28,949 nucleotides of DNA. Source: a virus. Of the stretch, positions 11,398 to 28,781 are shown in pieces. Location: IMG/VR virus record IMGVR_UViG_3300034050_000569, positions 1-28,949 of that record, one strand, 5' to 3'. Position numbers and translations under genes: made by a program. Numbering within the stretch: position 1 is the first letter of the stretch; each line of letters begins with the position of its first letter. Under the pieces are notes generated by a model, which was not told the origin of the DNA, made no database searches, and saw only the letters and a program-made list of their open reading frames with translations.

Positions 11398-11465
11398 TTT
11401 TTGGATAGGCTGATATTTTGTATAGGCTGACTTTTTGTATAGGCTGGCTTTTTGTATAGGCTGGA
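11398..11465. repeat. Four 17-bp tandem repeats upstream of the HTH gene
   Basis: Units start at 11398, 11415, 11432 and 11449 with consensus TTTTTGTATAGGCTGRC; the first has GGATAG for GTATAG. On the minus strand each reads CAGCCTATACAAAA, a TATACA hexamer that looks like a -10 box repeated four times. They lie between the palindromic operators and the HTH gene start, in that gene's expected leader. A regulator-binding array or expanded promoter element is likely. Confidence 0.7.
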
Positions 11466-11477
11466 CCTTTTGACCAC

Positions 11478-11573
11478 TGTTCAAGTGAACACCATTGTCA
11501 TTTCTGAGAAAAGTGTTCAAATGAACAGTGTTCAGGCGAACACCCCTGTTCAAGAAAACTGTTCATTCGAGTA
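11478..11573. promoter_or_regulatory. Operator-like cluster TGTTCA-N2-TGAACA
   Basis: Full sites are TGTTCAAGTGAACA (11478-11491), TGTTCAAATGAACA (11514-11527) and TGTTCAGGCGAACA (11529-11542, one mismatch in the right half). Half-sites begin with TGTTCA at 11547 and 11560. Several spaced near-identical palindromes between divergent genes is the pattern of a Cro/CI-type switch. The HTH protein at 10978-11349 is the obvious candidate ligand. Related half-sites also occur in the two structured elements. Confidence 0.75.
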
Positions 11574-14389: not shown

Positions 14390-16221
14390 GTTCTATCATT
14401 TACAATGCAGTCAGGGAGATTTTTAGGCCTACTCCCAAACTGGAGGTGCAGGACTGGCTGAAAACGCATGTTCGCTTTGAGCGCGGCCCGATCCTTGGCG
14501 CGTTCGACACGAAGAACTCTCCATGGATCAAGGAACCGTTGACGCAGCTAAAGAACCACGAGACCCGCGAAATCATCTGTGCATGTTCGGTGCAGTCGGC
14601 GAAGACGGCGTTAGCCGAAGGCGCCATGCTCTACCTGATCGCGGAGCAGGGCGGGGACATGTGCTTGTATTTACAGACGGACGAGCACGCTGACGAGTTC
14701 TTGGACACCCGGTTTAAGCACCGTATCCTCGACTGCAAGCCAGTCACCAAGCTGCTGGCTCGTGGGGACAAGAGTATCCAAAAGAGGACGGTCGCATTTG
14801 CCCACATGACGCAATACGTGATGGGTGCGAGCAATATCCACAACCTCCAGTCCAAGGCGGCAAAGTACGTGATTGGTGATGAGGCTGCTTACTGGCCGCA
14901 CGGGCACATTGATGAGTCGCGCAAGAGGACGACATCATTTGATGCGCGGAACAGCAAGCGGATCTACGTGAGCACGCCAATGAACAACTCTGGCGAGTTC
15001 TACGAATCCTTTATCGCTGGCTCATGCAGCGAGTGGAATGTGCGATGCCCGGAGTGTGATGAGCACTGGCCGATGGTACTATCTCAACTCCGGTGGGACG
15101 GCGAAGGTGCAAAGCTCGCAGACGGCAAGTACGACCTAGCGCGCATCCGGAACACTGTTCGATATGAATGCCCGGCTTGCCACGCCATGCTTAGGGACGA
15201 CCCAAGGGTGAGAAGATCGATTGCAAACAGCGGGTTCTACATCAATCAGAACTCGGCGCCAGACCCGCGCGTCAAAAGCTACCACTGGAATGCGCTGACC
15301 GTTCCATGGGTGGCGTGGGACACGATAGCGGGCGAATTTCTAAAGGCTGAATACTCGCGCAAGTTGGGCGATTATTCGCCATTAGCGGAGTTCGTACGCA
15401 AACGACTGGGCGAATTCTGGGATATGCGCGAATTTCAGAGCGAGGAGGTCAATTTATCTGGCTCCTTTGCAATGGAGGAGGAATGGGATCAAGAATTCCG
15501 CCGATACATGACCGTGGACGTGCAGCGAGACTATTTTCGGGTTGTGGTGCGTTTATGGGCACAAAACGGCGATTCTCGTCTGTTTTATGCTGGAGAACTG
15601 CATACTTGGCAGCAATTGATGGATCTACAGAAGAAATTCAACATTAACGCCAGCAGGGTTTTTATTGATTGCGGTTTTGAGCGGTATCAAGGCGAAGTAT
15701 ACAGGCAGTGTGCCGACAATCATTGGTTTGCAGTTAAAGGCGACAAGGCACAGTTTTTTACGTGGACGATTATTGATAAGCGAAGTGGAAAAGCGCAGCA
15801 GGTCAGAAGGCCATACTCGCAAATTCAATACATTGATTCGGGCGTAGGGCTTGCTAGGTCACATGCAAAAGGTGCTAGAAAGGCGGATTTGGCCAAACGC
15901 ATTGTGATGTGTTCTGACCCCATGAAGCAAATCCTGCACCGTTTGCGAGCGGGACAAGGGGCATCGTGGCAGATCGCCCATAATGCGCCAAGGGACTATT
16001 ATAAGGAGATCCAGAACGAGGTGTTTGTTATTGAGAAAGACAAGAAAACCGGCAAAAACAAAAGCTACTTCAAGAAGCTGGGTGAAAACCATTCGTTCGA
16101 CTGCGAAGGTATGCAAGTTCTCGCCGCCTACATTGAAAAACTGCTAGGTACGGCGGATGCAGGTGAAACCCCGTCGCCAAAAGCACAACAAGCAATCGAG
16201 CAGTACCCTGTCAATGCTTGA
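14386..16221 (+). CDS. Terminase large subunit, GpA family
   Basis: 611 aa, near lambda gpA in length. The N-terminal ATPase has the deviant Walker A-like CSVQSAKT (68-75) and Walker B YVIGDEAAYW (161-170). A zinc-binding pair follows, CPEC (221-224) and CPAC (262-265). The C-terminal nuclease region begins near MTVDVQRDYFRVVV and includes VFIDCGFERYQGEVY and FAVKGDKAQF, as in GpA terminases. It is the packaging motor and nuclease that cuts concatemers. The TGA stop at 16219-16221 lies within a TTGACA hexamer that is part of a repeated start-site element. Confidence 0.94.
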   Translation: MSSIIYNAVREIFRPTPKLEVQDWLKTHVRFERGPILGAFDTKNSPWIKEPLTQLKNHETREIICACSVQSAKTALAEGAMLYLIAEQGGDMCLYLQTDEHADEFLDTRFKHRILDCKPVTKLLARGDKSIQKRTVAFAHMTQYVMGASNIHNLQSKAAKYVIGDEAAYWPHGHIDESRKRTTSFDARNSKRIYVSTPMNNSGEFYESFIAGSCSEWNVRCPECDEHWPMVLSQLRWDGEGAKLADGKYDLARIRNTVRYECPACHAMLRDDPRVRRSIANSGFYINQNSAPDPRVKSYHWNALTVPWVAWDTIAGEFLKAEYSRKLGDYSPLAEFVRKRLGEFWDMREFQSEEVNLSGSFAMEEEWDQEFRRYMTVDVQRDYFRVVVRLWAQNGDSRLFYAGELHTWQQLMDLQKKFNINASRVFIDCGFERYQGEVYRQCADNHWFAVKGDKAQFFTWTIIDKRSGKAQQVRRPYSQIQYIDSGVGLARSHAKGARKADLAKRIVMCSDPMKQILHRLRAGQGASWQIAHNAPRDYYKEIQNEVFVIEKDKKTGKNKSYFKKLGENHSFDCEGMQVLAAYIEKLLGTADAGETPSPKAQQAIEQYPVNA

Positions 16222-16240
16222 CAGGGAACCAGATTTTATG
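16218..16240 (+). promoter_or_regulatory. TTGACA-N14-ATG start element, copy 1
   Basis: TTGACA at 16218-16223 lies exactly 20 nt before the ATG at 16238. The 14-nt spacer (GGGAACCAGATTTT) has no Shine-Dalgarno at a usable distance. The element decides the start at 16238 over the upstream ATG at 16214. Confidence 0.65.
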
Positions 16241-16513
16241 GGTGGTCCTTCAATTTTGCGTTACGCCTCGCTGCAATACTGCGAGACTCTTTATGATCAG
16301 TGTCTAGCGGCGCTGACCGAAGGGCAGGGCACAATTGTCATCTCCACATCCGGCGGAGGCGAGTCGGAGACGCGCTCTAGCGGCAACGATGGGGGTATCC
16401 CGGTAATGACTTTAATCCGTGCAGTGATGCGGAGGATGCACCAGCTTGATCCAATCAAGTATCCGCTTATCTCTAACCGTCTAAAAGCAGACTTTAGCGG
16501 CCTTACCCTATGA
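16238..16513 (+). CDS. Small head protein, connector position (gpW-like by place)
   Basis: 91 aa from the ATG at 16238, chosen because it lies 20 nt after TTGACA as at five other starts; an ATG at 16214 would add 8 residues and overlap the terminase. The sequence (SILRYASLQYCETLYDQCL, then VMTLIRAVMRRM and DPIKYPLISNRLKAD) is helical with a Ser/Gly-rich middle. Position between large terminase and portal is that of lambda gpW, a head-tail connector, but I see no clear sequence match to gpW. It overlaps the portal start as ATGA. Confidence 0.65.
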   Translation: MGGPSILRYASLQYCETLYDQCLAALTEGQGTIVISTSGGGESETRSSGNDGGIPVMTLIRAVMRRMHQLDPIKYPLISNRLKADFSGLTL

Positions 16514-18162
16514 CCTATCTCGAATCAATTATCCGCGCAGTCAATCCGAAGCTTGCTTTGGAGCGAAAACGCGCGCAAGCGGCCATTGATATGGGCGAAA
16601 AGGTAGGATTTTGGCGAGTTGGGGCGCAATCAAGCACAAACCGCAAGGCCAGCGGACAAAGCCTTGATCAGCCAGATTCTTCGCGAAATCACACGGATCG
16701 GGTCACTTTGATCCGTGAATCGCGCTGGTTGGAGGAAAACAGCAGCATTATCAAGTCGATTTTGCGCAAATACCGCACGTTCTCCGTCGGGCGGCTGCAA
16801 TATGTGGCTCGCACGAGCAATGAGGCCGTCAACAAGCAGATCGGTGCATACGTTGAGAGGTGGATGGCCAATGCAGATGCCAGCCAGCGGCACCATTTTC
16901 GCACACTTGCCGGGCTTGCTGTCACCAGCATGAAGCGCGATGGCGACATCGGGTTCATCGTGCTGGAAGAACCGATGACTCCGCTTGATCAAATGATGAT
17001 GATTTGCCCGATTCGCATTCAAGCCATCGAGGCGGACCGGATCGGGTCTATTGTGAACCGAGAAGGCCTTGATAGTCGGCCATTTAAGCCGTTGAAGAAG
17101 AATGAGCAGGACTTTTCCGGGGTTGTGGTAAACGGTTCTGGCAAGCCGATCCGGTATCGTATTTACAACCGCAGCCGAACCGGTGAAATGCTGACGCCAG
17201 CACTGGAGGTGCCAGCTCAGGATTTCCTCCACCTGTTTGACCCAACACGGCTCGATTCGTACCGGGGGTTCAGCGTGTTCGATGCAGCCATCACTGACAT
17301 TAAGGATCTGATGGAGATCCTCGCGTGCGAGAAGATGTCAGTGAAGATGCTTTCCAGCATCTCTGGCGTGGTCAATAATTCCGATGGGTCTGCCGATCAG
17401 GACGTGTCGCTGGATATGGCCAATGACTACGATCCAAACGCTGACCGGCTGAAAAAGATTGAGCCCGGCAGCATCGAGTATTTGGCTGAGGGGGAAAGCT
17501 TCAATCCGGTTGAGAGCAACCGCCCGTCGCCAACCTTCAATGGTTTTCTCGATTCATTGATCCGCAACTGCGGCATGGCGACGAACTTGCCGTTCGGCTT
17601 CATTTACAGTTGGGCGGGGCAAGGGACGGCGGTGCGGATGGAGGCAGCACAGGCGGCCCGCGAGTTTGAAATGACGCAGCTCACTTTAGAGGAGAAATTG
17701 CTCAATCCTCTAGTGCGGCGCGTGATTGCTCGCGGAATGCAGCTTGGCCACTTGCCCACCGTCCCAGACTTTGATTCGGGCGAATGGCGCTACCCTGCAA
17801 AGGTCACGGCGGATGTTGGTCGCGAGTCAAAGGCGCTGATCGATGAGACCATGGCTGGCATTATCAGCAAGACTCAGATTGCAGCAGACCGAGGCGAGGA
17901 CCGCGCTATCATTCGCGACTTGTTGCGTGCGGAAGCGATGGAACTCGTGGAGGATGCGAAAATGGTACAGGAGGCGTCAGGGGGAGTGCTTGATCTGCCG
18001 ACTGCAATCTACATGCTCGAACGCCGGGCGCCGAATGCGCCAACCATTGCAACTGCGGCAACTGCGGCGCCAGAGGAGGACGAAAGTTCCGACGAAGTAG
18101 AAGACTCTGCTGCGGACGAAGAAGAGGACATTGCCGAAGGTGATACGGAAGGAGATTCATAA
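16510..18162 (+). CDS. Portal protein, lambda family
   Basis: 550 aa. It matches lambda gpB-type portals: VGRLQYVARTSNEAVNKQI near the N-terminus, the conserved AGLAVTSMKRDGDIGFIVL, DFLHLFDPTRLDSYRG (a family hallmark; compare H-x-F-x-P-x-R-x-x-x-x-RG), and an IYSWAGQGTAVRMEAAQA segment in the wing. The C-terminus is an extremely acidic tail (EEDESSDEVEDSAADEEE), possibly for scaffold or DNA contact. As a dodecamer it forms the packaging channel. Order after terminase and before the protease fits lambda exactly. Confidence 0.94.
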   Translation: MTYLESIIRAVNPKLALERKRAQAAIDMGEKVGFWRVGAQSSTNRKASGQSLDQPDSSRNHTDRVTLIRESRWLEENSSIIKSILRKYRTFSVGRLQYVARTSNEAVNKQIGAYVERWMANADASQRHHFRTLAGLAVTSMKRDGDIGFIVLEEPMTPLDQMMMICPIRIQAIEADRIGSIVNREGLDSRPFKPLKKNEQDFSGVVVNGSGKPIRYRIYNRSRTGEMLTPALEVPAQDFLHLFDPTRLDSYRGFSVFDAAITDIKDLMEILACEKMSVKMLSSISGVVNNSDGSADQDVSLDMANDYDPNADRLKKIEPGSIEYLAEGESFNPVESNRPSPTFNGFLDSLIRNCGMATNLPFGFIYSWAGQGTAVRMEAAQAAREFEMTQLTLEEKLLNPLVRRVIARGMQLGHLPTVPDFDSGEWRYPAKVTADVGRESKALIDETMAGIISKTQIAADRGEDRAIIRDLLRAEAMELVEDAKMVQEASGGVLDLPTAIYMLERRAPNAPTIATAATAAPEEDESSDEVEDSAADEEEDIAEGDTEGDS

Positions 18163-18164
18163 GA

Positions 18165-18187
18165 TTGACACGCGATCTTGCTCTATG
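18165..18187 (+). promoter_or_regulatory. TTGACA-N14-ATG start element, copy 2
   Basis: TTGACA at 18165-18170 is 20 nt before the ATG at 18185. It starts 3 nt after the portal stop. No Shine-Dalgarno lies in the 14-nt spacer, whereas an AAGGAG at 18149-18154 is too far from this ATG. Confidence 0.65.
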
Positions 18188-19081
18188 CAGGTCGCAGACG
18201 AACTCAAAACATTCGCAGCCTTCGAGGGGAAGGTTGCCGGAAACACCATTCAGGGTATTTCGCTGATCCAAGAAGGACCGGCGCTTGGTCATGGAGTGTA
18301 TGTAGATCGTAAGTCGCTTGGTCAGTTTAAGGCGCTGGCCTCAAGCAAAGGGAAGCTGAAGGCCAAGATGAATCACTTCTCCGCGCTTGAGTCAACGGTG
18401 GGGTATTACGAGAATTTCAGGATCTCGAAGGGGAAGCTGCTTGCGGATCTCTCAATCTTTGACAGTTTTTCCGGGCGCGATTCGTTGCTTGAGATGATTG
18501 AGAAAATACCAAGCGAGTTTGGAGTTTCCCTGATGTTTAAGGCTCTTGAGCCGGAGTTAAACAGTGCAGACGGCAAGTTCTACACTCGCGCCAATGACAT
18601 CTATTCAGCCGACTTTGTAGACACTCCCGCCGCCAACCGCGATGGTGTTTTCAGCGTTGCGATTGACAACGACGAGCAAGTTATGGTTGAACCAGAAAAG
18701 CCACAAGCTCCTGAAGCTCCTTCTTTCGTTTCCGAATTTTCGGCATTGTCTGAAAAGATCGAACAACTGTCCGCGCAGATGGCGGCCTACGAAGCCAAGC
18801 TCGCCAGCGAGTGCGAGAAGATTGCTGCCGACATCAAAGCATTTGCTGAGCAGCCAGCGGCTGACCTCGAACTGCAAGCCCGGCTCGCTGCTGCTGCTCC
18901 TGCCCCGGCTGCCTTTTCTGCTCCGGTGAACGAGCAAGAAGCCCCCGCCCCAGTGATCGCTTTTGCTGACGCCAAAAAGTCCGCGCTGGAAGGCAAAGTC
19001 GGACTTGAACGCATCAAAGCGGCTCGTGCTTTTTCTGAGAAGTTCCCATCGGAATCTTCTTACCTTTCTGCTCAATCCTAA
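18185..19081 (+). CDS. Prohead protease fused to scaffold domain
   Basis: 298 aa. Residues 1-160 look like an HK97-type (S78/U35) prohead protease: H64 in KMNHFSALES, S115 in FGVSLMFK, and SADFVDTPAANRDGVF (141-156) parallel to the family's EVS...PAN motif. The catalytic His-Ser spacing is near that of the HK97 enzyme. Residues about 167-298 are a coiled-coil, Ala/Pro-rich region (EFSALSEKIEQLSAQMAAYE), typical of scaffold. The protease cleaves scaffold and head proteins during maturation. A TTG at 18131 would lengthen the protein, but the TTGACA element supports 18185. An internal start at 18683 probably gives the scaffold alone, as for lambda C and Nu3. Confidence 0.82.
   Translation: MQVADELKTFAAFEGKVAGNTIQGISLIQEGPALGHGVYVDRKSLGQFKALASSKGKLKAKMNHFSALESTVGYYENFRISKGKLLADLSIFDSFSGRDSLLEMIEKIPSEFGVSLMFKALEPELNSADGKFYTRANDIYSADFVDTPAANRDGVFSVAIDNDEQVMVEPEKPQAPEAPSFVSEFSALSEKIEQLSAQMAAYEAKLASECEKIAADIKAFAEQPAADLELQARLAAAAPAPAAFSAPVNEQEAPAPVIAFADAKKSALEGKVGLERIKAARAFSEKFPSESSYLSAQS
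18663..18685 (+). promoter_or_regulatory. TTGACA-N14-ATG element, internal copy 3
   Basis: TTGACA at 18663-18668 lies exactly 20 nt before an in-frame ATG at 18683 inside the protease gene. The codons encode IDND; the spacer has no strong Shine-Dalgarno. It marks the protease/scaffold boundary. Confidence 0.6.
18683..19081 (+). CDS. Scaffold protein from internal in-frame start
   Basis: 132 aa, identical to residues 167-298 of the protease protein. It begins MVEPEKPQAPEAP and continues into a coiled coil (FSALSEKIEQLSAQMAAYE), an Ala/Pro-rich region, and a basic C-terminal helix (GLERIKAARAFSEKF) that could bind the major capsid protein. The start is inferred from the TTGACA-N14-ATG element and from the domain boundary. 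In lambda the scaffold Nu3 is likewise made from an in-frame start inside the protease gene C. The arrangement is known in other phages; the proposed signal is not. Confidence 0.6.
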   Translation: MVEPEKPQAPEAPSFVSEFSALSEKIEQLSAQMAAYEAKLASECEKIAADIKAFAEQPAADLELQARLAAAAPAPAAFSAPVNEQEAPAPVIAFADAKKSALEGKVGLERIKAARAFSEKFPSESSYLSAQS

Positions 19082-19096
19082 CCTTTTTTTACTACC

Positions 19097-20020
19097 ATGC
19101 CTCAAGCTAACCTGCTCGACATTGCCAAGCTCAACGGTTCTGACACCATTGTCGGCCTGATTGAGGAGACCCTGACCTACGCTCCCGAGGTTCAGATCAT
19201 GCCAGCCCGCACCATTCGCGGCACCTCGTATAAGATTGCCTCGCGCGTCTCGTATCCGGGCGTCGGCTTCCGTGCGGCCAACGAAGGCTCTGCCCCAACC
19301 AAGTCGGAGTTCGAGAACCAACTCATCGAGTGCTACATCCTCAGTGGTGCAGTGCAGGCTGACGTTGCAGTCGCTCGCGCCTACGAAGACGGTGAGCAAG
19401 CGTGGAAGGACATCGAATCCATCGGTGTCATGCGCCAAGCGATGATCGAGCTGGGTTCACAGGTCATCTACGGCACCTCGGTTGATGCTAAAGGCTTCCC
19501 CGGATTGCAGGCGATTCATACCGCTTTCAACTCTGGCCTTGTGGTTGGCGGTGGCGGCAGTGCTGATCTGTCCTCGGTCTACGGCATTAACACGGACACG
19601 CAAGGGGTGCAGCTCGTGTTCGGTTCCGGCACCACGTTCGAGCTTGGTGAATGGCGTATCGAAAACGTCGGCACCACCACGGTCTACCCTGCTCACGTTG
19701 CTAACCTTACCGCTTGGGTGGGTATGCAAGTCGGAAGCAAATACAGCGTGGGTCGCTTGAATAGCGTTGGCTCAAACTCCGGCGGTGGTGTCACCGACGG
19801 AAAACTGGCTGAGCTGCTCAGCAAATACCCAGTTGGCTACCGGCCTAATTACTGGCTGATGAACCGCCGCAGTGCCTACCAACTGCAAGTCAGCCGGTCC
19901 GCCACCAGCGTGCAAAACGGTGTTAAAACCTCAAGCGGATCAGAGATCTTTGCTCCTCTGCCAACTGAGTCTAACGGCATCCCAATCGTCATCACCGACT
20001 CGATCATCAACGCTGAGTAA
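19097..20020 (+). CDS. Major capsid protein
   Basis: 307 aa. It has the pattern of Bordetella-phage-type major capsid proteins with an HK97 fold: APEVQIMPARTIRGTSYKI near the N-terminus, YPGVGFRAANEGSAPTKSEF, and a C-terminal NGIPIVITDSI. These are typical of the family once the N-arm and E-loop have passed. It lies directly after scaffold/protease and before a small decoration-like protein. The upstream gap has TTACTACC immediately before the ATG, similar to the next gene's leader; no Shine-Dalgarno is seen. Confidence 0.85.
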   Translation: MPQANLLDIAKLNGSDTIVGLIEETLTYAPEVQIMPARTIRGTSYKIASRVSYPGVGFRAANEGSAPTKSEFENQLIECYILSGAVQADVAVARAYEDGEQAWKDIESIGVMRQAMIELGSQVIYGTSVDAKGFPGLQAIHTAFNSGLVVGGGGSADLSSVYGINTDTQGVQLVFGSGTTFELGEWRIENVGTTTVYPAHVANLTAWVGMQVGSKYSVGRLNSVGSNSGGGVTDGKLAELLSKYPVGYRPNYWLMNRRSAYQLQVSRSATSVQNGVKTSSGSEIFAPLPTESNGIPIVITDSIINAE

Positions 20021-20051
20021 TTAAGCGCACCACATCTAAAGAATTACTACA

Positions 20052-20459
20052 ATGGCTAACGAATTTACTAGAAACATTCAGGACGCGGCTCTAACCGAGA
20101 CGGCCACCATCCCGGCCACTGCAACTGATGCATTCACTGCCGACATCAACCTCGGTACCAACAGCAAAGCTTTTCTCACGGAAGAGCAAGAGCTGGAAAT
20201 CGCCTTCCCAGCCTTTACGGTGGGTCAGCTCGCCAACGGTGCAGCCGTCACGGCGGTTGTGCTTAACGGTTCCGCCGCTTCTCCTACCGGCACTGCTCTC
20301 GGCATCACACGTGTTGTGACCGGCGCTGGTGGCGCTGGTGCCCCCGCGACCAGCTTTCGTGTTCGCCTCCCGGCTGCGACCCTTCAGTTCCTGCGTGTCA
20401 AGTTTACCACTTCGGCTGCTAACGCTGGAGGCACTGCCACTGTCAGACTGCTGACCTAA
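20052..20459 (+). CDS. Head decoration/cement-like protein
   Basis: 135 aa, Ala/Thr/Gly-rich and beta-like (TATIPATATDAFTADI, FRVRLPAATLQFLRVKFTTS), with no charged enzyme motif. Small beta-rich proteins directly after the major capsid gene are usually capsid cement or decoration proteins; the assignment rests on position and composition. The leader TTACTACA-ATG resembles that of the capsid gene, so the two may share a high-expression signal. A strong terminator 31 nt downstream closes the capsid block. Confidence 0.65.
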   Translation: MANEFTRNIQDAALTETATIPATATDAFTADINLGTNSKAFLTEEQELEIAFPAFTVGQLANGAAVTAVVLNGSAASPTGTALGITRVVTGAGGAGAPATSFRVRLPAATLQFLRVKFTTSAANAGGTATVRLLT

Positions 20460-20490
20460 TTTTCGGTGCTGGGGGTTGTCGTCATCGGGG

Positions 20491-20528
20491 CGGCTGACAA
20501 GGTTGTATCCTTGTCAGCCGCTTTTTTG
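20491..20528 (+). terminator. Rho-independent terminator after the capsid genes
   Basis: CGGCTGACAAGG, loop TTGTAT, CCTTGTCAGCCG is a perfect 12-bp stem (20491-20520), followed by CTTTTTT. It ends 2 nt before the ATG at 20530. It would cap capsid mRNA and lower expression of the joining and tail genes, which need fewer copies. Confidence 0.85.
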
Positions 20529-20529
20529 T

Positions 20530-20889
20530 ATGCTTTACGCTCAACGTCTCGCCGCCGCGCATGGTCGCATCCGCAACAAGTTTGGTGCGGTGACGCAGAC
20601 CGAGAACCTGTTTGTCTGGCACAAGGGGGCGCAAATCCCGTGCTACCAGTCCACCGGGCGGACTCAGCGCAACCTAATGACGGCAATGATCGTTAATGAG
20701 GCTGCAATTACCGTCTGTGCCACCAAGGTGAACTTTACCAGCGTGCCAGTGGTTGGTGACGAGGTGAAGTATGGAACGAGCTTAGAGGGCGCCCAGACGC
20801 TTCGCATTGATACGGTCAACACGACCGCGATCCGTCCGTTCTATGAGCTGGATCTGATCGACCCAAACAAAGAGGAGACGGCAGCATGA
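20530..20889 (+). CDS. Head-tail joining protein (inferred from order)
   Basis: 119 aa from the ATG at 20530. It contains LFVWHKGAQIPCYQSTGRT, an FTSVPVVGDEVKYGT loop and a beta-rich C-terminus (RIDTVNTTAIRPFYELDLI), with the look of a small connector or FII-like attachment protein. The assignment rests mainly on its place between the capsid block and a gp10/Z-like protein. It starts right after the terminator stem, so the T tract overlaps its leader. It overlaps the next gene as ATGA. Upstream in-frame codons from 20476 run through the terminator and are rejected. Confidence 0.65.
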   Translation: MLYAQRLAAAHGRIRNKFGAVTQTENLFVWHKGAQIPCYQSTGRTQRNLMTAMIVNEAAITVCATKVNFTSVPVVGDEVKYGTSLEGAQTLRIDTVNTTAIRPFYELDLIDPNKEETAA

Positions 20890-21527
20890 GTGTAACCTTC
20901 TTGGCCGACGACAAGAAGCTCCGGGCCGCTCTTATTCAGTATGCCGGGCTGAAGAACAAGAGTGATGCAGAAGTCGTCAACAAGGCGATGCGGTTCTGGC
21001 TTCCATTCGCGTCCAAGCGCGTCATCAAGAAGACTCCGGGGAGACCGAAAGTGATGGCTGACTTGATGGCACCCGCACGCAATCAAGGACGCAACCAGCG
21101 CGGCTCAGCCAATCTTGGTCGATACAGGAACACTGTTGCTGCGGCAATCGTGTTCTATCGGATGAAGATGAAGGGGCAAAAGATTAAGAAACGTGGCAAC
21201 CTGACAAAGGTGGACAAGTTCTTTCGAGCGAGAAAGCGTTCGGCCAACTTCCTCCGTGCCGGATTCATTCCGGCCTTCAGGAAGTTTGGCGTTCCAGAAA
21301 AAGGCCCGTCAAACCAAAAGTTCTTTAAGGGGTACAGCTATGGTTTGATAGCCAAGCCTTCTCCTCGCAACTATGTGGAGGCGATTGCCTCAAACATGCG
21401 GGAAGGAACTCATGAGATTGCGCCAGACGCCTTCAACTCTAGCCGTACTGACGTGACACGCATTTTCATCAAATATATCAATGAGGATCTGGCAAGGATT
21501 GCCAAAAGAACGAAACTCTCACCGTGA
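20886..21527 (+). CDS. Tail completion/minor tail protein, HK97 gp10/lambda Z-like
   Basis: 213 aa, strongly basic. The pattern VNKAMRFWLPFASKRVIKKT early, a basic middle (MKGQKIKKRGNLTKVDKFF), and YVEAIASNMREGTHEIAP then IKYINEDLARIAKR at the end resembles HK97-gp10/lambda-Z-type tail completion proteins, which help join the tail to the head. The position before a tail-terminator-like gene agrees. It is coupled to its neighbours by ATGA and GTGA overlaps. The family match is by pattern, not by a unique motif. Confidence 0.68.
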   Translation: MSVTFLADDKKLRAALIQYAGLKNKSDAEVVNKAMRFWLPFASKRVIKKTPGRPKVMADLMAPARNQGRNQRGSANLGRYRNTVAAAIVFYRMKMKGQKIKKRGNLTKVDKFFRARKRSANFLRAGFIPAFRKFGVPEKGPSNQKFFKGYSYGLIAKPSPRNYVEAIASNMREGTHEIAPDAFNSSRTDVTRIFIKYINEDLARIAKRTKLSP

Positions 21528-22009
21528 TCACATATTCAATCAATCCAAGCGAGCGGTTGCAGCGGCGCATTTCTACGGTGCTGACGAACGACTTGCTCTC
21601 ATTGCCGTTGTTTACTGGCTTCACCACGAACAACGGGCGAGAGTTTACGCCTACCAAGTATCCATTCTTCTCGGTGCAGGTTTCTGATTGCCAAGAGGTT
21701 TTTCCTCGTACCAACGTGTGGAATGTGACAGTTTCAGTCGCTATGGCTGAAGACAGGGAAGAGGCCAACCTCACATTTGGTGAGGACCCTCGCCCCCGGC
21801 ATGAATTGCGGGCAGAGAACGTGACTGCGAGGATATACGGTGGCTGGAACGGTCTGACACTTCCGGAGGCCATCAACGCCATCGACGACAACGAGAACAT
21901 CACCGTGCTGAAGATGTACAATTCGATCCAGTCGAATGGCACCATGAGTGAAGACGAGATCTGCATGGAGTACTCTTTCGTTATGAGCTGCACGACTACC
22001 GAGCAGTAG
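21524..22009 (+). CDS. Tail terminator-like protein (lambda U position)
   Basis: 161 aa starting with GTG (GTGA overlap with the preceding stop). It is beta-rich: YPFFSVQVSDCQEVFP, NVWNVTVSVAMAEDRE, then acidic and ending VLKMYNSIQSNG...EYSFVMSC. Size, fold impression and place between a Z-like protein and the tail tube fit lambda gpU, the ring that caps the tail tube. No unique signature is visible, so the name is by context. Confidence 0.62.
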   Translation: MITYSINPSERLQRRISTVLTNDLLSLPLFTGFTTNNGREFTPTKYPFFSVQVSDCQEVFPRTNVWNVTVSVAMAEDREEANLTFGEDPRPRHELRAENVTARIYGGWNGLTLPEAINAIDDNENITVLKMYNSIQSNGTMSEDEICMEYSFVMSCTTTEQ

Positions 22010-22011
22010 GA

Positions 22012-22034
22012 TTGACACACGCGGCAGTATTATG
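22012..22034 (+). promoter_or_regulatory. TTGACA-N14-ATG start element, copy 4
   Basis: TTGACA at 22012-22017 is 20 nt before the ATG at 22032, and 2 nt after the previous stop. The surroundings match copy 2 (GATTGACAC), and there is no Shine-Dalgarno in the spacer. Confidence 0.65.
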
Positions 22035-22442
22035 GCCGCCGTTGCTGCAATCATCCCATACGGAAACATTCCAACCTCATCCCTACAGGATGAATCGAAT
22101 TCAGTGACCCCAGACATTCTGGTCCAGTCGCTGACTATCAGCGCATCTCGGGAAGAGAAGGAGTACCGCAATTCCACCGGCGCAATTTTTGCTCTGGAGT
22201 TCCGGAACCCGACAATCTCGTTTGCATTTGATGGATACATCACAAACAAAACTGGGGCTCTCTCTAATGGGCAACCGGGCGAGCGCGTGACCACCTTGGC
22301 CAACTTTACGTCTGACACGTTTGGGTTTGATCCAACCGATGGCGTGATGATTTACATGGAGCCAAGCCGTTCTGAGACAAACGAAGAAATTGCGAAAACG
22401 ACCTTTACAGTTAAGCAATATCCGTTTGTGTCTGTAGTATGA
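22032..22442 (+). CDS. Major tail (tube) protein, likely
   Basis: 136 aa, beta-rich: VTPDILVQSLTISASREEKE, AIFALEFRNPTISFAFDGY, then DTFGFDPTDGVMIYMEPS and a closing AKTTFTVKQYPFVSV. This size and profile, and its place after a tail-terminator-like gene and before the G/GT pair and the tape measure, fit the tube protein that polymerises as hexamer rings. It is short for siphovirus tube proteins, so a tube-associated protein is the alternative. Confidence 0.65.
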   Translation: MAAVAAIIPYGNIPTSSLQDESNSVTPDILVQSLTISASREEKEYRNSTGAIFALEFRNPTISFAFDGYITNKTGALSNGQPGERVTTLANFTSDTFGFDPTDGVMIYMEPSRSETNEEIAKTTFTVKQYPFVSVV

Positions 22443-22843
22443 CGCATTCTTGGATTCCGTGTACTGATCTTGATTTAGCCGCCGCATTTGGGACACTGGG
22501 GGTCCCCATGCGGCCAGAGGTGCAAGTAAGGGCGGATAGTGGTAAAGAGTATGTGACGGTGTTCTTGTCTACTGAGAGCGCCACCAATCCCGAGATCAAG
22601 ACGGGAGCATTGATGAAGCTACTCAAGAGCGGAGATCTGGAAAAGCAGGACCCAGAGCATCCATTGCTTTATGCAATCACCGCGATTAAAAACCGTCATG
22701 CGGTAACGCGGTCAATAAAAGAAACGCAGCGGATGATTTTGATTAGCATTAAAGGCAGCAAGAGAACAGCGTTTGTTCGTGAAAATATAACAGGAGAAGG
22801 ACTTGCTATAGCGGAAAGATTTCTGCATACTGGAAGGCCATGA
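22439..22843 (+). CDS. Hypothetical tail-region protein
   Basis: 134 aa, coupled to the tube gene and to the chaperone gene by ATGA overlaps. It begins SWIPCTDLDLAAAFGTLGV, has a basic middle (AITAIKNRHAVTRSIKETQ) and ends GEGLAIAERFLHTG. In lambda no gene lies between V and G, so this is an extra member of the tail-assembly block. No family is recognised; a minor tail or assembly factor is the simplest guess. Confidence 0.6.
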   Translation: MTHSWIPCTDLDLAAAFGTLGVPMRPEVQVRADSGKEYVTVFLSTESATNPEIKTGALMKLLKSGDLEKQDPEHPLLYAITAIKNRHAVTRSIKETQRMILISIKGSKRTAFVRENITGEGLAIAERFLHTGRP

Positions 22844-23292
22844 GCCAACTTGAAGAGAAAGAAATTTCAATCCTAGACCTACCCACTGAAGACCTTGCTG
22901 CTGCCCGCAGGGAGGCGGCCTTTAGCAATTCATACATTTGGGAAGGGAAGCCGTTTGAAGGGCTGACTTCTGCGCGAAAAGATTTGTGGTCATCCTTGTG
23001 CCACAAAGCGGGCTTCCCTCCATTAAGCCAGTGTTTTGACGAGATCTCTTTGTTCGCACCATTGGCAAAAGCGATGTTGTTTGTCCTGATCACGCCGAAG
23101 TCAAAGCTGAAGCTTTTGCGGGCACAGGGTATGGACAAGATGCTGGATGCGTTCGACGACTGGTGCGACGTAGCCGTGCCCATCCATTTGGAACCAGACG
23201 TGATCTCCTTGGGGATCAAGCTCCTTAACGACTCAACGGCCAGCCAGACAGAAGTAGTGCCGTCAGAGGGCAGTTCTGTGGGAAAGCCCTAG
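22840..23292 (+). CDS. Tail assembly chaperone G
   Basis: 150 aa. It is acidic at the N-terminus (LEEKEISILDLPTEDLAAAR) with a hydrophobic core (LFAPLAKAMLFVLIT) and an acidic tail (EVVPSEGSSVGKP). It lies directly before the tape measure, as lambda gpG does, and its gene ends in a GGGAAAG slip site followed within two codons by the TAG stop at 23290. The tail part past the slip gives the GT fusion. Chaperones of this type keep the tape measure extended during tail assembly. Confidence 0.82.
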   Translation: MSQLEEKEISILDLPTEDLAAARREAAFSNSYIWEGKPFEGLTSARKDLWSSLCHKAGFPPLSQCFDEISLFAPLAKAMLFVLITPKSKLKLLRAQGMDKMLDAFDDWCDVAVPIHLEPDVISLGIKLLNDSTASQTEVVPSEGSSVGKP

Positions 23293-23525
23293 CATACCCG
23301 GTCTGGTCTGCATTCTACGTTGCAGCCGTGCACCAGATGACCGGGATGAGTGAAGATGAGATCCTGTGGGATCTCCCACTCGCGCGCGGGCTCGCGTACA
23401 TGCACGTGTCGTTCGTTTTGCAGGGGACGCAAACGCAATGGCCTCGCGATCAATCCTCTAGTGATGAGATGACCAATGTGAAAAAGATGCTCCAAGAGAA
23501 GCCTTGGCGTAAGCTTGACATCTGA
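22840..23525 (+). CDS. Frameshifted tail assembly chaperone GT
   Basis: 228 aa in total. A -1 slip on GGGAAAG (23280-23286) links residue K149 of G to A-L-A-Y-P in the downstream frame, which stays open to 23525 and includes WSAFYVAAVHQMTGMSEDE and LARGLAYMHVSFVLQG, clearly protein-like. The T part has no start codon of its own before 23328. The heptamer is the same as lambda's G-T slip site. In lambda-type tails both G and GT are needed, with GT made in small amounts. The fusion is read directly from frames; its rate is not. Confidence 0.83.
23280..23286 (+). other. GGGAAAG slippery heptamer for -1 frameshift
   Basis: In the G frame the codons are GTG GGA AAG CCC TAG. A shift to -1 re-pairs the tRNAs on GGG and AAA and continues GCC CTA GCA in the open T frame. 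It is identical to the lambda G-T heptamer. Confidence 0.85.
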
Positions 23526-23537
23526 CAATCAGCAATG
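23515..23537 (+). promoter_or_regulatory. TTGACA-N14-ATG start element, copy 5
   Basis: TTGACA at 23515-23520, inside the last codons of the GT frame, is 20 nt before the tape-measure ATG at 23535. The spacer TCTGACAATCAGCA has no Shine-Dalgarno. Confidence 0.65.
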
Positions 23538-25445
23538 GCAACGATCAATGCGAAAATTCGGCTCGACTCCTCCCAATTTCAGGGTGGGCTGAATCGCGCT
23601 GTCACTTCCGCAAGTCAGGCGGTGCAGAAGATGTCTGGTCAGTTCGGGGCGTTGAAGAACATCGCCGGGTTCGGCGCGATTGGTGCGGCGGTTGGCGTGA
23701 TCGGGCAAAAAGTCATTGAGGCGTCGGTGCCATTTGAGAAGTTCCAAAGGCAGCTTTTGTTGGTGGCAGGCGGTGCGGAAGCTGCTAAGACAAAGTTTTC
23801 AGAGCTTCAGCAGGCGGCTACCTTGCCGGGCTTGGACTTAGCCTCCGCAGTTGACGGCCAGATCCGGCTACAGGTGCTGGGCTATACGGCGGACGAGGCT
23901 ACCGCGCACATCAAGACGCTGGCGAAGAATGTCGCCGCCTTCGGTGGTGGCGGGGAGGAAATGAAGGGCGTCATCTTGGCGTTCTCGCAGATTAGCTCCA
24001 AGGGCCAAGTATTTGCGGAGGAAATCAATCAGATTGCAGAACGCCTACCGACAGTCAGAACGCTGATGAAGGAAGCGTTTGGAACAGCAAATGCGGAAGA
24101 GATTCAGAAGATGAACGTCTCTGCAAGAGAGTTCACTGACGCGATGATGAATGGCATGGCTGGCAGCCAGCAAGTGACCTCGGGGCTTGCCGAAGAGTTG
24201 GCCAAGACCAAGATGATCTTGGATTCAATGTTTGCCGAAGGCAGCGGCGTGGCGACGTGGGGAGTCAAGGTTTTTAACAACATAACCAAGACGGGCATTG
24301 GCATGGCGGCCATGTTCAAGGACCTGTACAAAGACATTGTGTACGGGCAGGACAGGCTTAAGGAGATGAGCTATGCGGAAAAGTTTGCCGCAGACATGCA
24401 GGAGAAGCTGGCAAACTCAGATGCCAAGCGAAACAAGGAAGAGGAGGAAGCGGCTGAGACCAAGCGCAAAAGCGCAGAAGATGCAATTAAGGCAGAGCAG
24501 GAAAAGACCAAGGCATTCAATGACCGCATCAAGCAGACATCCATGGCGGTTTCTGCGGCTGGGACGGACAAGGAAAAGTTGGCAGAAGTAAATGCAGAGC
24601 TTAAGCGCCTTAATCTTGTTCAGGATCAAGAGACGCTACTAAAGCGGTTGAAAGATGCACAGGAAGGCCGCCTTGCGTTGAGCGAAAAAGAGCTTGATAA
24701 GATCAATCGTTATTTAGGACTGCTGGGGCAGCGCAAGTCCTTGGAGGAGGCCATGGCTGCTGCCGAGGAGACAGAGAAAGCCAAACAGGCGAAGCTGGAC
24801 AAAGACAAGGCCGACAACATCAAGAAGGTTCTGGATGCACAGAAGGCTGGCGCCACAGCATTAAAAGGTGAAGAGGGTGAGGACAGGCTTCTGACTGTTA
24901 AACGTGAGCTGCGCGGTGATTTTGACGGAGGCAAAAGTGCTGACACCGTGATGAACGAAGTTAATGAGGCCGCCATGAACGGCAAGGAACTTGCCGACTC
25001 AACAATCGAGGCGTACCAGCAGATCGTAGATCTGAAGGTCGAACAATTGAGTATTGAAAAAGCTCTTGCGAAAGAGGCGGAAGAGCGCGCCAAAAAAGCG
25101 GAAGAAGAACAGAAAGCCGCCGACAAGGAAAATGTGAAAGAATCTATCCGTAAGGCCGGGATGAACCGCGAGGAACGGGTGGGCGAAATGCGTGAGAAGA
25201 ATGAGGCAAAGAGGAACGTCAGAAAAGCATTTGATAGCGACGTACGGGAAGAAAAAAGAAGGTTGCGCAAAGCACTAGGCAACCGGTCAATCAGCAAGCT
25301 TGATACAGGCGGGGTGAGCCAAGAAAAGTTCATTGCGCGTGTTGCGGCTGAGAACGTCTCATCAAAATACAAGAACGCCTTGCCAGACTCATTGGAGCAG
25401 CTCATAAAAATCAAGGATATTTTAGCGGCTCTCGCCGCAGCATAA
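23535..25445 (+). CDS. Tape measure protein
   Basis: 636 aa. N-terminal INAKIRLDSSQFQGGLNRAV and the domain around AEEINQIAERLPTVRTLMKEAFG then VSAREFTDAMMNGM match the tape-measure N-terminal domain family. A Gly/Ala-rich hydrophobic stretch (FGAIGAAVGVIGQKV) lies at about 48-62. From about 270 the protein is long charged coiled coil (EEEEAAETKRKSAEDA onward). It sets tail length and exits at DNA injection. At 636 aa it predicts a short tail by the usual linear scaling, and it lacks the lysozyme-like domain seen in some relatives. It follows the G/GT genes, as in lambda. Confidence 0.92.
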   Translation: MATINAKIRLDSSQFQGGLNRAVTSASQAVQKMSGQFGALKNIAGFGAIGAAVGVIGQKVIEASVPFEKFQRQLLLVAGGAEAAKTKFSELQQAATLPGLDLASAVDGQIRLQVLGYTADEATAHIKTLAKNVAAFGGGGEEMKGVILAFSQISSKGQVFAEEINQIAERLPTVRTLMKEAFGTANAEEIQKMNVSAREFTDAMMNGMAGSQQVTSGLAEELAKTKMILDSMFAEGSGVATWGVKVFNNITKTGIGMAAMFKDLYKDIVYGQDRLKEMSYAEKFAADMQEKLANSDAKRNKEEEEAAETKRKSAEDAIKAEQEKTKAFNDRIKQTSMAVSAAGTDKEKLAEVNAELKRLNLVQDQETLLKRLKDAQEGRLALSEKELDKINRYLGLLGQRKSLEEAMAAAEETEKAKQAKLDKDKADNIKKVLDAQKAGATALKGEEGEDRLLTVKRELRGDFDGGKSADTVMNEVNEAAMNGKELADSTIEAYQQIVDLKVEQLSIEKALAKEAEERAKKAEEEQKAADKENVKESIRKAGMNREERVGEMREKNEAKRNVRKAFDSDVREEKRRLRKALGNRSISKLDTGGVSQEKFIARVAAENVSSKYKNALPDSLEQLIKIKDILAALAAA

Positions 25446-25446
25446 T

Positions 25447-26115
25447 ATGTCAACATCTGCTTCCACCCTCATCTTCGGCATCACTTCTGGTGCTGATCCA
25501 ATCCTCTTGGAAGACGGTCTGACATTTTCGCGTTCCGAGAACGGATTCGACAAGATGTCCGGCAAGTACCTTGGAAGGACCAATACGCCTGCATCTTTTG
25601 CTGATTTGAAGTTTCCGGCGGCAAGTACCGCGTCAGCACTGGGTGTGGCATACAGCAAGATGTTCTGCTCCGAGGTTTCTTACAACAATGTCGGCAAAGA
25701 TTTATATACGTTCAATGTCGAGTATATGGGGCTGATCGGTACGCAGGCAGTAAAGCGCACGGTCTCAAGCAAGTCACAGTCGTACACAACTGGGTCAGTC
25801 AATATTCCCGGAGTTGGCGTCGTCCCTAAGGCGCAGGGGCAATACATTAACCTTTCCTGTGAATACAATTATGTGACGGCAACGATGCCGGACACAGCGT
25901 TGGCAAGCCCAGTTCCGCCGGGCGGTGCTGGAACACTTCCGGCACAACCTGCTAATCCATTTACATCTCTCCCCACAACCCCAATATACAATTATCCGTC
26001 TGGATGGATTCGCGAAGGCATTGATGTGGACATGATTAACGGGACAAGCCGGACGGATAGCATTTTTCTAATTAAAGAGAGCTGGGTCTACGTTTACCCA
26101 TACATGCCCGGTTGA
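25447..26115 (+). CDS. Tail protein, distal position
   Basis: 222 aa, beta-rich. It starts with STSASTLIFGITSGADPILL and has a conserved-looking block VAYSKMFCSEVSYNNVGKDL followed by YTFNVEYMGLIGTQAVKRTV, then a Pro-rich segment (ALASPVPPGGAGTLPAQPANP) and ends SWVYVYPYMPG. It lies between tape measure and the glycine-rich proteins, where distal tail or hub proteins are encoded. I do not recognise the family. The TAATATG start context is shared with other non-SD starts here. Confidence 0.6.
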   Translation: MSTSASTLIFGITSGADPILLEDGLTFSRSENGFDKMSGKYLGRTNTPASFADLKFPAASTASALGVAYSKMFCSEVSYNNVGKDLYTFNVEYMGLIGTQAVKRTVSSKSQSYTTGSVNIPGVGVVPKAQGQYINLSCEYNYVTATMPDTALASPVPPGGAGTLPAQPANPFTSLPTTPIYNYPSGWIREGIDVDMINGTSRTDSIFLIKESWVYVYPYMPG

Positions 26116-26116
26116 T

Positions 26117-26995
26117 ATGCTGCCAGCACTGCCGATCATCGACAAGAACGTCAACGGTGCCCGTTCCGGGATTCTGTTGAATACCCTTGTGTCGCGCATC
26201 TTGCGGCAGCGGCTAGTCACGACGGAAACGGTTTCTATCACAGAAACAGCATCTGGGCAGATCATTTCTCGCATTGGAGGATCTGGTGTCGCTCCAGCAT
26301 TCGCTCTAGGCTTTGCTGTCGCCATCGATGGCGACACGGTGACTGTCGCTCCCGGTCGCGTCACAACGCCATCATGGGGGCTGCTAGTGGCCAGTGATCC
26401 GGTCGCCAAAGACTGGGCGGCAGAAGCCAACTTTGTGGGCGGATCTCTAACGAATCCGGTCACACAGGTATGGTTGCAGATAGGCTTTGCTGAGTCGGAT
26501 ACCCCTAGTTACGGGGCTCTCGCGACTAGCACTATCGACATCTCCGGCGCCTCCGGCGGGCGCGGCGGCGGGGGCGGTGGGGGGGCATCCATGGGTGGCG
26601 ACTGGGATGACGAGCGCGCGTACTCGACCATCGGTGAAGGGGGGCAAGCGGGGGATGCGTTTGAGTTTGCAGGTATCGGGGGACTGGGTGGTCTGCCCAT
26701 TAACCCGCCCGATGACATGGCCGCGACCCAGACGGGGCAAGGGAAGAACGGTGGCCCCGGCGGGAACGGAGGATCGGGCGGTGCTGGTGGATCTATCACC
26801 TTCGCACAAAAGACAAAAGCGGAAGTCATTATGCGGCGCTGGGCTTTAGGCTCGATCAGCATCCACACGGCCAAGGGCACTGCCAGTCAGGAATCGGCGT
26901 GGATTCATTTGGCAACAATTAGTAGTGGATCGGTGGAACAGCATGTAGCGGGCGTCATAACGGTCGCTCCCCCAGCAATCTCATTTATCGACTAA
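26117..26995 (+). CDS. Glycine-rich tail tip/adhesin-like protein A
   Basis: 292 aa, first of three tandem paralogues. It starts MLPAL, has a helix with VSRILRQR, then a beta domain ending VWLQIGF (about 118-124), a glycine-rich region (about 144-225) with long Gly runs, and a conserved C-terminal beta segment (VIMRRWALGSISIH, SGSVEQHVAGVITV). The Gly-rich part is reminiscent of polyglycine-helix adhesins such as T4-like gp38, which form the receptor-binding tip. This is by composition only. It ends in a TAATG overlap with the next paralogue. Confidence 0.65.
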   Translation: MLPALPIIDKNVNGARSGILLNTLVSRILRQRLVTTETVSITETASGQIISRIGGSGVAPAFALGFAVAIDGDTVTVAPGRVTTPSWGLLVASDPVAKDWAAEANFVGGSLTNPVTQVWLQIGFAESDTPSYGALATSTIDISGASGGRGGGGGGGASMGGDWDDERAYSTIGEGGQAGDAFEFAGIGGLGGLPINPPDDMAATQTGQGKNGGPGGNGGSGGAGGSITFAQKTKAEVIMRRWALGSISIHTAKGTASQESAWIHLATISSGSVEQHVAGVITVAPPAISFID

Positions 26996-27891
26996 TGCTT
27001 CCGCAACTCAAAAAATACGCGGACAAGGTTCTGTACATCGTGACCGGCGACACAATGGATTTGCTTGTCGATCGCATCCGCCGACAGACGCCAATAGCTG
27101 GGGCAAACATGCGGGTGGAAGAAACGAATAGAGGGCTGCTCCTTCATGCAAATAGTGAAACCCTTGTCGCTCCAGTCACCCCAATCACGTTCGACTTCCA
27201 AGCGTCACTAGCATCGGTCGATTCTCTCGCGATCACAGCCGGTCGCGTGATTGGCACTACCTACGGCACAATCAATGCGGACGATCCGGCCCCGACAGAT
27301 TGGCTGTCAGAACAATTTACCGTGCCAGCCGGGCTTTTCAGCGTGCCATCGGGCAGCAGCGTTTGGTTACAGATAACAGCGACAGAGACTGACCTTGCAT
27401 TAACTGGTGCCCTGCCTCTAACCGGCGCGGTCTCGCGCACCATTACGACCGGCGGGGGTGGTGGTGGCGGATCAGGTGGGGGGGGCGGTGCTACTGGAGA
27501 TCAAACATATTCGACGGCGGGCACAGCAGGCGGGCCGGGGGGCAATGCAGCAGGGCAGGTGCCCGGAGGCAGGAGTGCCTACACCGGCGAAGGAGGCACA
27601 TCTGCCGGGGAAGGAACGTCAGGTACCCCTGCCAACGGCAGCAATGCAGGCAATGGTGCCGCAGGCGGTGCAGGGGAGACAAAGACGTTTACCAATTACG
27701 ACAAACTTAAGATGACGTGGCGGCGGTGGCAGATTACTGGTGCCACACTTGTGGTGGCAGCGGACAAGCCAGTATCATCCGCCACAAGCTTCAACGTGCG
27801 CATTGCGTCACAAACCGCTGGCACCGTGACTCAATATCAAGCAGGTAGCTTTCACATCTGCTTACCAACCATCTCGTACATTGTTCCCTAA
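26995..27891 (+). CDS. Glycine-rich tail tip/adhesin-like protein B
   Basis: 298 aa. It starts MLPQL and has DLLVDRIRRQTPIAG, a domain with TAGRVIGTTYGTINADDPAP then DWL, the SVWLQITA strand (122-129), a Gly-rich region (about 153-227) and a C-terminal MTWRRWQITGATLVVAADKP segment. All of these align in order with its two neighbours, most closely with the third. The ATG is part of a TAATG overlap with gene A. The variation is concentrated in and around the Gly-rich region, as expected for host-recognition tips. Confidence 0.68.
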   Translation: MLPQLKKYADKVLYIVTGDTMDLLVDRIRRQTPIAGANMRVEETNRGLLLHANSETLVAPVTPITFDFQASLASVDSLAITAGRVIGTTYGTINADDPAPTDWLSEQFTVPAGLFSVPSGSSVWLQITATETDLALTGALPLTGAVSRTITTGGGGGGGSGGGGGATGDQTYSTAGTAGGPGGNAAGQVPGGRSAYTGEGGTSAGEGTSGTPANGSNAGNGAAGGAGETKTFTNYDKLKMTWRRWQITGATLVVAADKPVSSATSFNVRIASQTAGTVTQYQAGSFHICLPTISYIVP

Positions 27892-28762
27892 ACTGCCAGA
27901 CTTTCAGAACAACTTGAAGTACTTCCTAAAAGGGAAGACGCTCAACCTTTTCAGGGAAGTGCTTGATCGGCAGATCCCATTAAAAGGAAAAGGCGTGGAA
28001 TTGAATGAAACCGAGGAAGGCATCATGATCATCGCGCCACCTAGCGATGCCTTGGCGACAGTTGGCGCGTTGGATTTTTCTGGTGTTTACAGCGGAGGCA
28101 ATGTAACCGTGCGAGGAGGTAAGGTGATGGGGACGTTGTGGTCCAGCTACAATGCAAATGATCCGGCAAGTGGCGGATGGACGGAAGGAGTGGCAGTTGC
28201 AGGTGGAACGTTTGCTGTTGGGGCAGGGGCATCTGTCTGGCTCAATATCACTATATCTGCAACGACGGCAGACAACATTGGTGATCTGTCGGCATTCGGG
28301 CAATCGACTATTACGGTGACTGGCGGCACCGGAGGCGGGGGTGGTGGGGGCGGTGGTGGTGGAGCAGGAGCCGGAGGAACCGGAACGAGTGGGGCGGGAG
28401 GCAATGGTGTTGCAGGCACTGCTGGAACTATTGGCTCTCCCGGTTCTGGCGGATCGGGTGGCACGGCTGGGTATGTTCCATTCCTTGCTGGCGGAGGTGC
28501 TGGCTCTGGGGGTGGCAGCGGCAACTACGGGGCAGAAGGTAATTACGGTCAGTCGGTCAGCTTTTACGACTACGCCAAAGCAACGGTCAAGGTCCGGCGT
28601 TATTCTATCACAAGCGCAGTTTTGCAGACCACGCAGCCAACCGCTTCACCCACGACGGCGGGGTTACGGATCTTAACGTGGGACGGATCGACTGTGATTC
28701 ATCATCAAGTCGGATCGGTATTCTTAACCTTGCCCGTTATCGTGTACGCTCCGCCTGATTGA
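27881..28762 (+). CDS. Glycine-rich tail tip/adhesin-like protein C
   Basis: 293 aa from TTG at 27881, overlapping gene B's stop. The TTG is supported because it yields MFPKL, matching MLPQL and MLPAL in the paralogues. The order is the same: VLDRQIPLKGKG, VRGGKVMGTLWSSYNANDPA then GGW, SVWLNITI (118-125), a Gly-rich region with a run of eleven Gly (about 148-222), and VKVRRYSITSAVLQTT. It is the third copy of the family and probably part of the same tip or fibre complex. Its TGA stop lies inside a TTGACA hexamer. Confidence 0.66.
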   Translation: MFPKLPDFQNNLKYFLKGKTLNLFREVLDRQIPLKGKGVELNETEEGIMIIAPPSDALATVGALDFSGVYSGGNVTVRGGKVMGTLWSSYNANDPASGGWTEGVAVAGGTFAVGAGASVWLNITISATTADNIGDLSAFGQSTITVTGGTGGGGGGGGGGGAGAGGTGTSGAGGNGVAGTAGTIGSPGSGGSGGTAGYVPFLAGGGAGSGGGSGNYGAEGNYGQSVSFYDYAKATVKVRRYSITSAVLQTTQPTASPTTAGLRILTWDGSTVIHHQVGSVFLTLPVIVYAPPD

Positions 28763-28781
28763 CATCCCGCCGCATTTTATG
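28759..28781 (+). promoter_or_regulatory. TTGACA-N14-ATG start element, copy 6
   Basis: TTGACA at 28759-28764, containing the TGA stop of the third paralogue, is 20 nt before the ATG at 28779. The spacer TCCCGCCGCATTTT has no Shine-Dalgarno. Confidence 0.65.

Follow-up and report, generated by a model that had tools for sequence, protein, structure and literature searches.

Late gene starts and a TTGACA box in the window

The DNA analysed here, hereafter the window, is a 28,949-base tailed-phage fragment with a lambda-like late module, in which a GpA-type terminase gene is followed by a gpW-like gene, a lambda-family portal gene, protease and capsid genes, tail genes and a tape measure gene (Table 1). 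It raises the question of what marks the starts of its late genes, and why six of the nine TTGACA hexamers on the + strand stand 14 nt before an ATG. The first-pass annotation had singled out these six sites and listed the remaining + strand copies at 1421, 1730 and 18459, and all of its coordinates were confirmed. The - strand of the window contains no TTGACA, and the backwards control gave zero sites. An unbiased scan of 4096 hexamers at 41 offsets (0-40) before ATG in the window puts TTGACA with a 14-nt gap at the top of all pairs (P = 2e-9; corrected P = 3.4e-4). Five of the copies had been described as intergenic, which needs amending. At 16218 and 28759 the hexamer supplies, through its TGA, the stop of the ORF upstream (the terminase at 16218), and the copy at 23515 overlaps the final codons of the ORF before it, which stops at 23523-23525. 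The copy at 18663 is internal to the protease ORF and marks an in-frame, nested start for the scaffold.

Table 1. Coordinates of the TTGACA boxes and associated features of the window.
Feature	Coordinates	Strand	Remarks
Sigma-region-4-like HTH protein; candidate TTGACA reader	11684..12205	+	Head of the operon leading into the late genes
Terminase large subunit (GpA type)	14386..16221	+	
GC-TTGACA-N14-ATG before gpW-like gene	16216..16240	+	52/52 orthologues
gpW-like head-tail joining gene	16238..16513	+	Assigned by position and size; no database match
Portal protein	16510..18162	+	ATGA overlap coupling to gpW; no TTGACA
GA-TTGACA-N14-ATG before prohead protease gene	18163..18187	+	50/50 orthologues
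Prohead protease with scaffold C-terminus	18185..19081	+	Nested ORF 18683-19081; weak head maturation protease match only
GA-TTGACA-N14-ATG inside protease ORF, in frame (nested scaffold start)	18661..18685	+	45/45 orthologues
Major capsid protein	19097..20020	+	Leader without TTGACA
Intrinsic terminator after capsid/decoration genes	20487..20524	+	
GA-TTGACA-N14-ATG before putative tail tube gene	22010..22034	+	26/26 orthologues
Putative tail tube gene	22032..22442	+	By position and size
GC-TTGACA-N14-ATG before tape measure gene	23513..23537	+	19/23 orthologues; other four N15
Tape measure protein	23535..25445	+	
GA-TTGACA-N14-ATG before unnamed late gene running off the window	28757..28781	+	Site at corresponding place in near-complete relatives

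Although the hexamer at these sites is the -35 hexamer of sigma-70 promoters, the ATG lies 20 nt from its first T, which is not the sigma-70 -35 geometry. No -10 hexamer was found after a 16-18 nt spacer at the window-family boxes, and no conserved spacer element or -10-like sequence was found before or after the ATG in this family. GGAGG-like Shine-Dalgarno matches are absent 5-10 nt before the starts, nor is any G-rich hexamer conserved there in the window family, in agreement with the earlier statement that the six sites have no usable Shine-Dalgarno. The codon wobble pattern indicates that the ORFs are translated from the box-marked ATG, i.e. that this ATG is the real start. Because there is no -10, no Shine-Dalgarno and a genuine start at the marked ATG, the canonical sigma-70 and Shine-Dalgarno roles of the box are excluded on sequence grounds. 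Most likely, the TTGACA box represents a new kind of phage gene-start switch.

The window contains several further features of interest. The terminator behind the capsid and decoration genes is strong, and the ATG of the next gene (20530) sits at the end of its T-run, an arrangement conserved in relatives. A slippery GGGAAAG at 23280-23292 lies at the end of ORF 22840-23292 and is followed by an ORF in the -1 frame to 23525, whose continuing frame is conserved in relatives; the arrangement resembles the frameshift of the lambda G/GT tail assembly chaperone. At 11383-11570, beside a divergent HTH repressor gene, a 17-bp direct repeat of the TTTGTATAGGCTGGCTT type occurs four times together with several GTTCA..TGAAC dyads, probably forming an operator region. 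A long run of CCTGCTTGTCC/CTGCTTGGCCC repeats (7975-8240) precedes a terminator-like hairpin at 8406-8434, and three glycine-rich, paralogous-looking tail genes follow one another at 26117-28762.

Conservation in relatives of the window

Comparison with 52 metagenomic relatives, whose sites are orthologous and do not represent independent events, shows that 197 of 254 forward TTGACA hexamers have an ATG at exactly 14 nt, the next-largest pile-ups being of 43 and 37. The box stands at the orthologous starts of the gpW, protease, nested scaffold and tube genes in every case, and at the tape measure start it differs in a few relatives by one nucleotide of spacing (Table 1). The longer relatives have five or six sites each and none on the other strand, and the portal, capsid, decoration and overlapping genes carry no box. 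The consensus in this family is G[A/C]TTGACA-N13-T-ATG, the rest of the spacer being free. A 57%-identical relative (L060) retains the box at N13-N14; its spacers are rich in GC and bear little resemblance to those of the window. The claim of a fixed spacing applies to the window family, in which 14 nt is nearly constant; other phages, described below, have 13-16 nt with a tail to ~20.

The box inside the protease ORF is also coding sequence. An in-frame ATG at 18683 is present in 45/45 relatives, as for a lambda-type nested scaffold, and its product is predicted. Across 30 distinct sequences the Ile codon of the box is always ATT and the Asp codon always GAC (30/30 each), while most nearby wobble positions vary, which shows that the nucleotides themselves are constrained.

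The box at the gpW gene forms part of an inverted repeat, CCCTGTCAA-TGC-TTGACAGGG (16206-16226), whose TGTCAA/TTGACA core is kept at all gpW sites listed and in L060, where the loop is 4 nt.

Recurrence in distant phages and prophages

The first-pass annotation had proposed counting TTGACA at every offset from ATGs in relatives and in the host, with a missing peak in related phages or the host as refutation, and the element was not refuted by this test. The peak is strong not only in the window family but also in a second phage group and in Verrucomicrobiota prophages, and it is absent from host genes. Genomes of the second group (L129-L184; terminase 25% identical to that of the window) contain ~8 TTGACA each. 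Almost all of these lie on the late strand ahead of late genes, with the start codon following at 13-19 nt, and a nested start inside the protease gene again carries the box. The box is also carried by prophages of at least five Verrucomicrobiota genomes, a phylum assignment inferred from an uncultured Opitutae bacterium locus; there TTGACA is mostly followed by a start codon at 13-16 nt, and ~7-11 copies are present in each of several such prophages from sequenced genomes. In prophages L218-L227, L232 and L233, 89 late-strand TTGACA compare with 9 on the other strand, and ATGs pile up among the 89 at 13 nt (17), 14 nt (16), 15 nt (8) and 16 nt (8). Neither the second group nor the prophages show a peak on the other strand. 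Independent evidence for the box comes from the second group, from several lineages of prophages and from the scan of the window.

In the genomes examined, the box is confined to phage DNA, and host genes make no use of it. None of 289 Verrucomicrobiota genomes is enriched in the window-type pattern (none exceeds three), and in a survey of 12 genomes for N13-16 sites those in the chromosomes that could be read cluster in prophages; G143, for example, has nine sites in 28 kb vs. about forty scattered over the other 3.7 Mb. These two surveys ruled out a host-wide signal in the genomes they covered. Terminase relatives, at most 35% identical, are present in 35 of 388 Verrucomicrobiota genomes; a scan of genome contigs with the terminase of the window gave no match, and one with an alignment gave two distant loci. 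The TTGACA peak is lacking in Akkermansia phage Moulinsart, P8625 and four unrelated GpA-type phages, and no literature on a TTGACA start element in Verrucomicrobia or Akkermansia phages was found. Three further properties were considered and set aside. TTGACA is avoided elsewhere in the second group no more than shorter words predict, only 21/45 prophage spacer hairpins are more stable than shuffles, and out-of-frame ATGs in the spacers are neither enriched nor avoided and are hence uninformative.

A contrasting arrangement in P8625-like phages

The nearest named phage by terminase is the Verrucomicrobia phage P8625 (24.5% identity). P8625 and its relatives also have TTGACA before the gpW and tube genes, with 27-36 nt intervening before the start. 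At these sites a -10-like hexamer lies at the standard 17-nt spacing (T24, T26, A27 and A28 enriched), and the ATG coincides with the predicted transcript start or follows it by a few nt. With this TTGACA-N17-(-10) arrangement followed by an ATG, the joining of start codons to promoters is a recurrent feature of the wider phage set. Compared with the P8625-like phages, the window family and the prophages have the hexamer ~16 nt closer to the start, and the -10 is gone. A GTATCC-N7-GGATAC type dyad between TTGACA and ATG, overlapping the -10-like element, is seen in P8625 (L059; 5439, 10750 and 15573) and in an Opitutae prophage (L235). Prophage L226 has a textbook sigma-70 promoter, TTGACA-N17-TAATAT, at 3169 with an ATG just downstream, and the same prophage carries N13-16 boxes.

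A candidate reader of the box

The C-terminal half of the protein encoded at 11684-12205 looks sigma region 4-like by eye (ELDVVLYCYGLIGRAEESMEQIAKRHRLSKQAFSKRV). Pfam, PHROGs and PDB folds gave no significant sigma match; a fold search produced a weak, non-significant list rich in sigma region 4 (1ku7, 8d5v, 7kuf), and the structure model is poor (pLDDT 66). Relatives of this protein occur in the window family, L060, the second group, L218, L221 and L074, all of which have boxes at 13-20 nt. No relative was found in P8625, nor any match in other P8625-like loci, many of them short. Prophage loci L212 and L215 have few boxes and yet encode a relative. The protein was rejected as a universal reader, as it was not found in four box-bearing prophages (L223, L225, L232 and L233). 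It is a lead to the TTGACA reader of some lineages, not an assignment. A different small conserved HTH protein (MNKLYWIV...) heads an operon in three of these prophages (L223 1085-1546, L225 1294-1821, L232 14-532), and it is possible that it serves as an alternative regulator in box-bearing prophages without the 11684-type protein.

How the box may act

The explanation that we consider best, with about an even chance of being right, is that TTGACA-N13..16-ATG is a compact promoter specific to the phages. Transcription from it would begin at the start codon or no more than a few bases away, and each marked gene would yield an mRNA of its own that is leaderless or almost so. The box would replace the Shine-Dalgarno, such that late genes are translated either by overlap with the preceding gene or from a box-bearing start, with an A/C-rich leader in place of the box at the capsid and decoration genes. 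A phage factor, possibly the HTH protein in this lineage, may recruit host RNA polymerase to TTGACA. We infer this action on transcription, the start point and the factor from several patterns. The start-codon distances of the 89 late-strand prophage TTGACA break off sharply below 13 nt and tail off on one side only, as expected if start codons cannot lie upstream of a transcript start. Across some tens of sites, a second conserved G in the prophages (position 18, 12 nt after the box) keeps its register with TTGACA (78%, 0.89 bit) better than with the start codon (65%, 0.55 bit). A few boxes lie directly after strong intrinsic terminators (3/57 by scan vs. 0.4 in shuffles, and two more by eye), which leaves little room for any other promoter. 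The gpW hexamer falls in a predicted mRNA hairpin (unpaired probability 0.12; 0.10 in L060); pairing would hurt an mRNA signal and not a DNA signal. This point is not conclusive, since the terminase stop codon sits in the hexamer and a translating ribosome could open the hairpin. The P8625-type promoters in front of the gpW and tube genes also favour this reading, as does the restriction of the box to phage DNA in the genomes examined. The sigma-4-like HTH protein co-occurs with the box in several lineages and was not found in P8625 itself. Against a promoter stand the missing AT-rich -10 region between box and ATG, the GC-rich prophage spacers (0.70 vs. genome 0.60), which count against melting, and the four box-bearing prophages in which the HTH protein was not found; to our knowledge, TTGACA 20 bp from the start is the geometry of no known sigma factor.

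The principal rival, which we regard as a real but lesser possibility, is a translation-initiation element in which UUGACA stands 13-16 nt before the start, where the mRNA leaves the 30S subunit. It would be bound there by a phage protein or a component of the ribosome, and ribosomes would thereby be recruited to uncoupled starts, the nested scaffold included. Such an element accounts well for a distance that is maintained relative to the start codon and hardly departs from 14 nt in the window family, for the presence of the box at uncoupled but not overlapping late starts in that family, for the conservation of the hexamer alone with a free spacer, as with a Shine-Dalgarno, and for the lack of a -10 or melting region; the nested in-frame start also resembles lambda C/Nu3, which is translational. 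It accommodates less readily the predicted pairing of UUGACA in the mRNA at the gpW and tape measure sites, the GC-rich spacers adjoining the start, the second G that tracks TTGACA and not the start codon, the capsid gene without a box and the disuse of the signal by host genes. The proposed check for pairing with 16S rRNA did reveal TGTCAA in two Verrucomicrobiota 16S genes at ~783, which we place in the helix 26 stem, and in one of them also at 1157; the only copies are presumed to lie in rRNA stems, and no accessible complement was found in these two genes, which may not represent the host of the window. The first-pass annotation had left a translation signal and an unusual promoter near the ATG side by side. 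Of the two, the promoter is somewhat favoured.

The other readings fare worse. It is improbable that the box is the site of a phage regulator (a repressor, antitermination or RNA-processing factor) at gene starts, with other unseen signals initiating. The restriction to phages would suit such a site, as would the TGTCAA-N3/4-TTGACA inverted repeat found at the gpW boxes and at some of the tape measure boxes, but the dyad is missing at most sites, and a regulator alone leaves the fixed start distance and the nested start unexplained. That the hexamer is an ordinary sigma-70 -35 box with its -10 17 nt downstream inside the genes is very unlikely, even though it is a perfect -35 consensus and P8625-like relatives use it so. 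No -10 is found within the first codons in any family, a scan of the late region for promoters gives fewer sites than shuffles, and the transcripts would miss a start codon from which translation is evident; the earlier objection to a normal -35 role therefore stands. Chance, or shared ancestry of a few functionless sites, has next to no probability. The relatives are indeed orthologous and not independent, but the pair is top-ranked in the window alone, the wobble positions of the nested site are frozen, the box recurs in the second group and in prophages at ~25-35% terminase identity, and control phages have no such peak.

Comparison with known gene-start signals

Gene-start signals of Verrucomicrobiota and their phages are almost unstudied, and we are aware of no gene caller that models a TTGACA start box. 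That several distant phage groups have TTGACA locked to their gene starts, while host genes lack it, speaks for phage-specific initiation machinery. If the signal is translational, it would let the virus mark its own starts, nested ones included, in hosts that rarely use Shine-Dalgarno pairing.

Several known systems share some of these properties. As in the leaderless-mRNA promoters of bacteria and phages, the start codon (ATG or GTG) would be fused to the promoter and no Shine-Dalgarno would be needed; however, their boxes lie about -10 and -35 from the start codon, whereas here a -35-like hexamer lies at -20 without a -10. The P8625-type sigma-70 promoters likewise place TTGACA before gpW and tube genes, with the start at or just after the predicted transcript start, and differ in their 17-nt spacer and -10-like hexamer, which put TTGACA ~34-42 nt before the start codon. 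Lambda C/Nu3 likewise obtains its scaffold by initiating in frame within the protease gene, at an internal ribosome site; unlike that start, the internal start of the window, whose product is predicted, carries TTGACA-N14. Among the proteins scanned, which cover part of the ORFs of the 29-kb fragment, there is no phage multisubunit RNA polymerase. Such polymerases serve the giant phages phiKZ and AR9, whose late promoters, TATG with transcription starting at G and AACA-N6-TA/G with the last A/G as the start (PMC5312081), resemble the present element in being very short, phage-specific and built on one recognisable box close to the transcript start, although box and spacing differ. Finally, Verrucomicrobia are Shine-Dalgarno-scarce (PMC10783764), and the TTGACA box shares with the Shine-Dalgarno and with the Kozak-like start contexts of Bacteroidota (PMC6847099) the character of a short upstream start determinant in hosts with few Shine-Dalgarno sequences, while it is set apart from both by its position, its sequence and its restriction to phages.
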